Assembly (NCBI GenBank): GCA_017515475.1
Contig: JAFWFS010000013.1
Location: forward strand, 62,001-126,000
Direction: 5' to 3'
From: Erysipelotrichaceae bacterium
Lineage (GTDB): Bacteria > Bacillota_I > Bacilli_A > Erysipelotrichales > Erysipelotrichaceae
DNA: 64,000 nucleotides
Part shown: positions 48,076 to 50,367 of the stretch, piece by piece
Layout of the letters: every line of letters begins with the position of its first letter
Numbering within the stretch: the first letter of the stretch is position 1
Program-made: the position numbers and the translations under genes
Notes under the pieces: model-generated
What the model was told of the DNA's origin: nothing
The model's database searches: none
Seen by the model: the letters and a program-made list of their open reading frames with translations, nothing else

Positions 48076-49005
48076 CTAATTGAAATTCACGTATTCTTCT
48101 TCCGGCGCAGGTGCTTCCTTGCAGGATTTCACGTCCAGGGCGCACATCCTGATTCCTTCTTCGTTTTCAATACAGCGGACAGTTCCGCTTAGATAATAGT
48201 ATTTCTTCGAATCGATGTCTTTCTTTTTCAGATTGAAACAAGGCAAAGCGATATCCGTGGTATCCGCCGCACAGCAGACCATGGCCTTCCTGCCCATCAT
48301 CAGGACATCAGGATATCCTTCTATGTCTCCGACGTATCTGACTTTAATGCTCAGCTTCTTGTGATCGTATTTCTGCGGATTGTCGATCGCGTCCATGAAC
48401 CACAGCCCGTAGTCGATATCGCTGATATCCAGATCCTTCGAAGTATCGAAGAGTTCATCCTCGATCTTGTTTGTAACATTACCGTCCTTGTCTTCGTATA
48501 TCAGTTCAATATACTGATTGATCGATTTCAGATTGTTGCGTAGATAACGCTTATCGACATCGTCGGAACGGTTCAGAATCACGACTTCCGCATTTACCAC
48601 ATGATTGTACATGAACTGACGCATGTTTGTCATATACAGATTGAAACGGGAAGCGTCGATCGTCGTCAGTGTCTGTGCCAGCTCCCAGTTTCGGATAAAG
48701 CCCGTCTCATACAGTATGTTGTCATCCTCCATGCCGTTGAGTTCAAGGAATATCCTTTCAACACGGTAGTTTCTATCTATCTCTTTCTGTTTCTCAATGG
48801 TCAGATCCTTGATGGAATCCATGTAGATGACCTGCGAATTGGTCGCTTTCAAAAACTTCTCGTCGTAGATCACATCGCCCTGTTCAAAACAGATGATCAG
48901 AGAAGGTTCTCCTTCGTTGAAACGGGGATTGTACAGCGTCTCCTTGATCGCCTGTGTCTTGCCGGAATCCAGAAAACCGGAAAAGACATATACCGGTTTA
49001 ATCAT
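48076..49005 (-). CDS. G3E/CobW-type GTPase fused to a DUF1980-like C-terminal domain
   Basis: 309 aa. Residues 1-210 are a CobW-like P-loop domain: Walker A SGFLDSGKT (9-17), LELNGMED in place of the usual E-P-S-G, and NRSD as base-recognition motif (145-148). The CxCC metal motif of active G3E chaperones is missing. From about 215 the chain resembles the C-terminal part of DUF1980/TIGR03943 proteins: VRYVGDIEGYPDVLMMGRKAM, then VCCAADTTDIALPCF (Cys244, Cys245, Cys256), then a YYYLSGTV strand and VNF end. That match is from memory and needs a profile search. Start ATG 49005 overlaps the previous gene by eight bases. Probably metal handling. Confidence 0.72.
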   Translation of the reverse strand: MIKPVYVFSGFLDSGKTQAIKETLYNPRFNEGEPSLIICFEQGDVIYDEKFLKATNSQVIYMDSIKDLTIEKQKEIDRNYRVERIFLELNGMEDDNILYETGFIRNWELAQTLTTIDASRFNLYMTNMRQFMYNHVVNAEVVILNRSDDVDKRYLRNNLKSINQYIELIYEDKDGNVTNKIEDELFDTSKDLDISDIDYGLWFMDAIDNPQKYDHKKLSIKVRYVGDIEGYPDVLMMGRKAMVCCAADTTDIALPCFNLKKKDIDSKKYYYLSGTVRCIENEEGIRMCALDVKSCKEAPAPEEEYVNFN

Positions 49006-49957
49006 GGAAAAGTTCCTCAAACAGTCCGTGATCGATATCCGTGCCAATGACTGAAACTAAGGCGTCTTCTTTCTTAGATCCGGTGAATATATGGTATTCA
49101 TTCAGCACATAGTTGAAATACAGCATTCCTTCTGTACCGAATACATAACCCTTGATACGGATGATGTCTTCCGGAATATCGCTTAAAGCCTTGGCCAGTT
49201 CTTCTTCACTGTAATGATGTTTTGGATGCAGGATCATGTTCCTGAACGGTTCATCATCGTCGTCATCATCGTGGTGATGATGGTGTTCGTGGTCATGATG
49301 ATGTTCGTGATGGTGCTCATGGTCATGGTGATGATGTTCATGATCATGCTCATCTTCCTCGATTTCCGGAAGCAGGTCCCCTCCGGATACGATGATATCC
49401 AGCAGTTCTTCAATGGAATAATTACCGACAGGTTCTGATACGATCTGCGCTTCCGGATTCAGTTCCTTCGCAATACAAACCGCATTCTGTATGGTCTCTC
49501 CGTCTGCAACATCGGTATGAGATAGAATGATCGCATTCGCAGACTTGACCTGATCATCGAAGTACTCCTTGAAATTCTGATGATACTTTCTGCAGGTTTT
49601 GACATCCACGATGCAGATATGGGAAACGATGCGGAAATCGTCATCCCTGCGGATCACATTGATGATTTCAGAAAGCTTTCCCACGCCTGAAGGTTCAATC
49701 AGCAGATCTGTTACACCCATGTTTTCGATCTCTTCCAGGGCATCCTCAAAATCGCCCTGAAGCGAGCAGCAGATACAGCCGTTGTTTATTTCTCTGATCT
49801 TCAGTGAACTGTCAAAAAAAGCACTGTCAACACCGACTTCACCGAATTCATTCTCCAGAAGCATCACTTTATTGAATTTCTTTTCCTTTAGCAGTTTCTG
49901 AATGAAAGTTGTCTTTCCTGCACCTAAGAAACCTGAAACGATATAAACATTAATCAT
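48998..49957 (-). CDS. COG0523 (G3E) GTPase, His-rich zinc metallochaperone-like
   Basis: 319 aa. Walker A GFLGAGKTT near the N-terminus, metal motif GCICC, EPSGVGKLSE, SHTD as the base-recognition motif. A 30-residue His/Asp run (about residues 206-238) suits zinc or nickel storage. The C-terminal CobW_C-like domain follows (DIIRIKGYVFGTEGMLYFNYV). Zinc is the commonest ligand for such proteins (inference). Start: ATG 49957 with SD GGAAGG; a GTG at 49966 overlaps the DUF296 stop and is an alternative. Confidence 0.88.
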   Translation of the reverse strand: MINVYIVSGFLGAGKTTFIQKLLKEKKFNKVMLLENEFGEVGVDSAFFDSSLKIREINNGCICCSLQGDFEDALEEIENMGVTDLLIEPSGVGKLSEIINVIRRDDDFRIVSHICIVDVKTCRKYHQNFKEYFDDQVKSANAIILSHTDVADGETIQNAVCIAKELNPEAQIVSEPVGNYSIEELLDIIVSGGDLLPEIEEDEHDHEHHHHDHEHHHEHHHDHEHHHHHDDDDDDEPFRNMILHPKHHYSEEELAKALSDIPEDIIRIKGYVFGTEGMLYFNYVLNEYHIFTGSKKEDALVSVIGTDIDHGLFEELFHD

Positions 49958-49962
49958 AATCT

Positions 49963-50367
49963 TCACCTTCCTTTTATTCTTGAAAAAACGATTTCATCGT
50001 ATCCCGATTCGGGATCGAATTCCCGTCTTGTTTCGTATTCTTCCAGAATACCCAGAACCAGCTCACAGGTCGTATTGATCAGACAGCCTTTCTCCAGATG
50101 ACCGCCGATGCAGTTGCCATTGTCATCCGCCAGAGAAACATGGATATGTGCCTTGCCTCTGGATACCGTACCTGTCAAAGAAACGATCTCGAAGTCTTCT
50201 TCTCTTTCCAGATATTCAACAGCGTTCGCCAGACGGATCTTCATCCGGTAGACGCATCCTACACCGCTCAAAACGATGGCGGTATTGATGTGCAACTCTT
50301 TGCACTTTTCTTCAATACTCTGACGGAGATCATCTCCTCTTCTCAATCTGAAAGCCAGTTCTCTCAT
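49963..50367 (-). CDS. DUF296/PPC domain protein
   Basis: 134 aa single-domain protein of the PPC/DUF296 family, with LSGVGCVYRMKIRLA and the signature GTVSRGKAHIHVSLADDNGNCIGGHLEKGCLINTTCELVL, whose histidines form a metal site in solved members. Family members are trimeric; a DNA-binding role has been proposed, mostly in plants. First gene of the operon with the two GTPases, uppP and ccdA-tlpA, so it could be the metal-responsive element of that unit (inference). Leaderless. Confidence 0.82.
   Translation of the reverse strand: MRELAFRLRRGDDLRQSIEEKCKELHINTAIVLSGVGCVYRMKIRLANAVEYLEREEDFEIVSLTGTVSRGKAHIHVSLADDNGNCIGGHLEKGCLINTTCELVLGILEEYETRREFDPESGYDEIVFSRIKGR

Follow-up and report, generated by a model that had tools for sequence, protein, structure and literature searches.

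Overlapping CobW-type GTPase genes in Erysipelotrichaceae, one fused to DUF1980_C, as a probable pair for intracellular zinc

On the reverse strand of the window, the 64,000-nucleotide stretch of an Erysipelotrichaceae genome analysed here, two genes for CobW-type GTPases overlap. The downstream gene (48076..49005; ATG at 49005, stop at 48076), an open reading frame of 309 codons plus stop with boundaries identical to those of the preliminary description, encodes a 309-aa fusion of a GTPase domain with DUF1980_C. Its ATG falls within the last 8 nt (an 8-nt overlap) of the upstream gene (48998..49957; ATG at 49957), which encodes a canonical CobW/COG0523 GTPase (PF02492, E 2.7e-36), hereafter the partner. 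A PCC (DUF296) gene (49963..50367; PF03479, E 5.8e-29), whose product shows an AHIHVS...GGHL pattern, lies just upstream of the partner, and a BacA/UppP gene and a DsbD_TM/thioredoxin gene (both assigned by Pfam) follow downstream of the fusion; all window features with coordinates here and below are on the reverse strand. Genes of the PCC, uppP and DsbD types are shared by 24 to 27 loci, almost all of them in close relatives, with the PCC cluster found in 24 loci and at position -2 in 21 of these. Structures have been solved for relatives of the PCC protein (2p6y and others). This protein is a candidate third member of the system, perhaps one that binds metal, in close relatives only.

Judged by Pfam gathering thresholds, both domains of the fusion lie above the cut-off: PF02492 (cobW) matches residues 4-160 (E 3.6e-12; 46.7 bits vs 20.7) and PF21537 (DUF1980_C) matches residues 183-306 (E 3.9e-9; 36.7 bits vs 25.9). 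TIGR03943 matches residues 183-305 only (E 3.2e-11), and its 43 bits, against an NCBIfam equivalog cut-off of 88.8, mean that the whole fusion protein is not a TIGR03943 member. These comparisons with CobW and DUF1980/TIGR03943 profiles, proposed in the preliminary description, bear out its reading of the N-terminal part as a CobW P-loop GTPase without CxCC and of the C-terminal part as DUF1980-like, although the latter domain comprises about 125 residues and not the roughly 95 given there. The top NCBIfam match of the N-terminal part is NF041053, a CobW-related selenoprotein (E 4.4e-12), of which the fusion, with 46 bits vs a cut-off of 180, is not a member. Neither PF07683 (CobW_C) nor a membrane domain was matched in the fusion by Pfam, and a PDB search with the full-length fusion as a single sequence gave no match.

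The GTPase domain (residues 4-160; 48526..48996) is of the G3E/CobW type by PF02492 and by structural and profile comparison: the top Foldseek match of its model is zinc-bound YjiA (4ixm, E 1.4e-7), and a profile search links positions 3-171, that is, the GTPase part only, to YjiA (E 2.5e-9). Across 32 diverse fusions, G10, G15 and K16 of the P-loop GFLDSGKT (residues 10-17; 48955..48978) are invariant, as are E88 and N90 of the Walker B/G3-like ELNG (ExxG/ExNG; residues 88-91; 48733..48744). The switch-I ExG is retained and CxCC is missing from the fusion and its relatives. By alignment and coordinates, the G4-like motif is NRSD (residues 145-148; 48562..48573), a departure from NKxD which makes GTP binding by the fusion uncertain.

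The DUF1980_C domain (residues 183-306; 48088..48459) is predicted to adopt an OB-like barrel. Modelled alone with AF2, residues 182-309 gave a confident five-stranded barrel (pLDDT 92, pTM 0.85), the top PDB matches of which are OB folds (CST subunit, PriB, SSB and RPA; best E 1.9e-3, TM about 0.5 at best). Most of these OB matches are DNA- or RNA-binding proteins, but they reflect the fold (E about 2e-3), and nucleic-acid binding is therefore not claimed for DUF1980_C. The domain contains the segment GRKAMVCCAAD (48262..48294), a candidate thiolate metal site: G238, R239, C244, C245 and D248 are five of the 16 columns invariant in the 32 diverse fusions, and C244, C245 and D248 are invariant even in fusions down to 23% identity with that of the window. 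In the full-length model, loop residues 244-247 are poorly defined (pLDDT below 50).

The adjacent gene had been expected to supply a CxCC motif and a His-rich chaperone, and both a CICC (CxCC) metal motif (49766..49777) and a His/Asp-rich linker (49250..49354) are present in the partner. PF07683 (CobW_C) scores 20.1 bits in the window's partner, just below the cut-off of 22, and 32.6 bits in the partner at locus L079. All 54 usable partners include a run of 30 residues of which at least 13 are His/Cys, and the linker, by this richness, looks like a metal reservoir. In many relatives it carries Cys/His tandem repeats, e.g., HHHHHDEECGCE in L070; the repeats seen in L070, L076, L082, L089, L091, L092 and L104 have periods of about 12-16 residues, vary in copy number and resemble a built-in metallothionein. 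Such large His/Cys arrays would fit a regulatory or buffering role, in which the linker stores zinc, the pair reports zinc status, and the fusion, with its CxCC lost and its G4 altered, acts on the partner as a cap that binds nucleotide or as an inhibitor, and not as an acceptor of metal. We regard this explanation as rather unlikely, because the invariance of C244, C245 and D248 at 23% identity speaks for a chemical function of the OB domain.

The fusion architecture recurs far beyond chance. At 60 of 60 fusion loci, from at least six families, the directly upstream gene on the same strand is a member of the CobW cluster (several of these partners are truncated by contig ends), and the gap between fusion and partner is -8 to +19 nt where both gene ends are well placed, larger listed overlaps arising from in-frame upstream start codons in the mechanical ORF call. 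The remaining neighbours of the pair vary between families. A scan of one genome per species yielded 23 loci, labelled Erysipelotrichaceae, a relative of these, or Firmicutes, with full-length fusions of 59-96% identity; DUF1980_C is present in 41 of 295 genomes of the phylum, with most matches in open frames of 306-328 aa. The survey across relatives suggested in the preliminary description placed the fusion, by our count, in about 57 of the 116 host-family genomes (55 full-length and 2 with contig-end fragments) and, in the sole survey outside the host's class, in Clostridia, where two Oscillospiraceae plasmid records (Subdoligranulum and Vescimonas) contain the pair. The clostridial fusions share 34% identity with a related fusion over the full length, and the pair is annotated in the Vescimonas record as 'CobW family GTP-binding protein' and 'GTP-binding protein'.

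Nine host-family genomes that lack the fusion were tested for a canonical CobW, and the best match was E 2e-6 or weaker (none at all in one genome), with the single exception of a moderate match of E 2.7e-20; fusion-bearing genomes of the family have an adjacent canonical CobW at about 1e-37 to 1e-39. In G356 and G367 the partner only seems to stand alone, because its locus runs off the contig end, and the solitary CobW genes of G378 and G319 belong to other types that have no CxCC. An ML tree built from the GTPase domains of 55 fusions and 47 partners resolves one fully supported group for each of the two proteins, and the two subtrees are broadly congruent, with similar branching by family; the fusion is therefore old and has been inherited as a pair with its partner. 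The simplest reading of this tree is that one old duplication and one fusion might have occurred and that the products were then inherited together.

An ArsP_1 permease was found neither in the own genome, in agreement with the preliminary description, which had called the permease partner absent, nor in 29 of 38 fusion genomes; the ArsP_1-like matches in the other nine are never beside the fusion and lie on other contigs or more than 240 kb off on the same contig. Four genomes (G096, G141, G172 and G245) contain the fusion together with a standalone DUF1980_C lipoprotein, and the standalone lipoproteins adjoin a zinc ABC importer, not an ArsP permease. The absence of ArsP_1 and the coexistence of fusion and lipoprotein argue that the fusion is no substitute for a permease/DUF1980 pair, a replacement that had been proposed for it; the fusion represents a separate, old and widespread lineage. 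A partnership of the fusion with a membrane permease, in the manner of a DUF1980 subunit and coupling GTP turnover to transport, would have precedents, because TIGR03943/DUF1980 proteins adjoin permeases in Priestia and the YcgR/YcgQ homologues ScfA/ScfB are encoded by linked genes in Streptococcus, Enterococcus and Bacillus (PMC5584981). However, in view of the missing ArsP_1 permeases, of a fusion protein with no matched membrane domain, and of the lack of any transporter gene conserved beside the pair outside close relatives, we consider such a partnership very improbable.

Which metal the pair might handle is suggested by relatives of its DUF1980_C domain and by its neighbours. In five related genomes, standalone DUF1980_C lipoproteins of about 180 aa lie beside ZnuA, an ABC ATPase and an ABC-3 permease as the final gene of znuA-znuC-znuB operons (L061:4993-5538, L062:4866-5423, L063:5089-5631, L064:4721-5248 and L068:5069-5641), and four of these five znu loci contain a Fur-family gene; Pfam confirmed the tested members of the L061 operon, and the other loci were assigned by clustering with L061. 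The lipoprotein domain aligns with DUF1980_C of the fusion (hhalign, E 6e-9), and its CC and D align with C244, C245 and D248. The lipoprotein is a candidate for an undescribed accessory zinc-uptake lipoprotein. At L081 and L085, a heavy-metal P-type ATPase and a regulator of the ArsR/SmtB type are encoded near the pair; for the ATPase of L081, the score exceeds the cut-off of the cadmium-family subfamily but not that of the copper subfamily. From this context we infer, as our best guess, that zinc is the metal handled by the pair.

Regulatory elements, by contrast, offer evidence against this reading. A simple scan found no Zur box or shared palindrome upstream of the pair (the box of Erysipelotrichia may differ), and a Fur-like inverted repeat, TGAAAATGATTTTCA, that is present in the znu operons of three genomes is lacking there. 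Neither the window nor any of 12 distant loci yielded a metal riboswitch; a THF riboswitch in L094 immediately precedes a separate membrane-protein gene, not the pair. A search of the own genome (G000, roughly 90% complete) at E 0.001 detected no Fur-family regulator, although the genome encodes a protein resembling ZnuA (L105) and a GTPase resembling HypB (L003).

On the Priestia megaterium plasmid pBM400 (L116), two tandem permease/TIGR03943 pairs lie near YcnI and CopC, and DUF1980 proteins adjoin these copper genes; DUF1980 is therefore not linked to zinc everywhere, a hint that it serves different metals in different systems. At L077, L078, L086 and L088, all from one related family, the neighbourhood of the pair includes tgt-queA together with a third gene of queuosine type; the tgt product is a zinc enzyme. 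These neighbourhoods would suit a metallochaperone pair that carries copper, nickel or cobalt in place of zinc or is devoted to a single client enzyme, e.g., Tgt, and CobW itself handles cobalt (PMC7895991). We nevertheless find this explanation quite improbable, since standalone DUF1980_C of the same family occurs in a ZnuACB/Fur-family operon context, a Zn/Cd-type ATPase and ArsR/SmtB are found near the pair, and the tgt neighbourhood is confined to one family.

We propose, with a probability of roughly 0.55, that the overlapping genes encode an obligate CobW-type GTPase pair for intracellular zinc, which would work as a GTP-dependent heterodimer in zinc transfer or docking. The constant pairing points to an as yet unstudied machine of two proteins that would move zinc within the cells of many gut Firmicutes. 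In this pair the partner would hold the metal, with CxCC beside the nucleotide site and the His/Cys-rich linker as a local reservoir, and the fusion has kept the P-loop, lost CxCC and acquired the OB-like DUF1980_C with its invariant Cys-Cys-x-x-Asp. The two GTPase domains may join as a GTP-dependent heterodimer, the closing of which, or hydrolysis, would shift zinc from the CxCC/linker to a putative CC-D site of the fusion; alternatively, the OB domain might dock a client protein at this step. More specifically, an undescribed machine that is widespread in Firmicutes, a GTP-switched heterodimer of a zinc-binding GTPase and a CxCC-less sister that receives or delivers the metal at the thiolate site of an OB fold, is a tentative proposal to which we give somewhat less than even odds.

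With the COG0523/CobW zinc GTPases (YjiA, ZagA/YciC, ZigA, MigC and ZNG1) the fusion shares the fold, P-loop, switch-I ExG and Walker-B glutamate, and the partner shares CxCC, the CobW_C match and the His-rich linker. In COG0523 proteins, zinc at CxCC is coupled to GTP turnover (MigC; PMC12208494), and Haas et al. described every COG0523 member as having CxCC (PMC2770081); unlike these proteins, the fusion has neither CxCC nor CobW_C, carries DUF1980_C instead, and is paired with a CxCC protein. The C-terminal DUF1980_C with CC-x-x-D is common to the fusion and the TIGR03943/DUF1980 permease subunits (YcgQ and ScfB), whereas in the fusion a GTPase replaces the membrane domain found at their N terminus, and no permease gene adjoins it. 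ScfB, a homologue of YcgQ and by this homology a probable carrier of DUF1980_C, is a fitness factor of streptococci (PMC5584981). A lipoprotein of Staphylococcus aureus is also listed with DUF1980 (PMC5020093). The lipoproteins of the znuACB operons in Erysipelotrichaceae have the domain and the CC and D residues in common with the fusion, but they are predicted to be exported, lack a GTPase and are probably extracellular, whereas the fusion begins directly with its GTPase domain.

Both domains are already named in Pfam, and their combination is apparently undescribed: we found no paper on the architecture or on the function of DUF1980_C in the DUF1980/TIGR03943/YcgQ-YcgR literature, in which subscription journals were partly covered. 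Few mechanisms of metal hand-over are known for the COG0523 zinc chaperones, and a constantly paired system, with the metal motif kept in one protein and exchanged for a thiolate domain in the other, would separate metal loading from delivery, so that each could be studied on its own chain. It would also offer a first clue to the role of DUF1980_C, which occurs as a domain of unknown function in other Firmicute proteins too.
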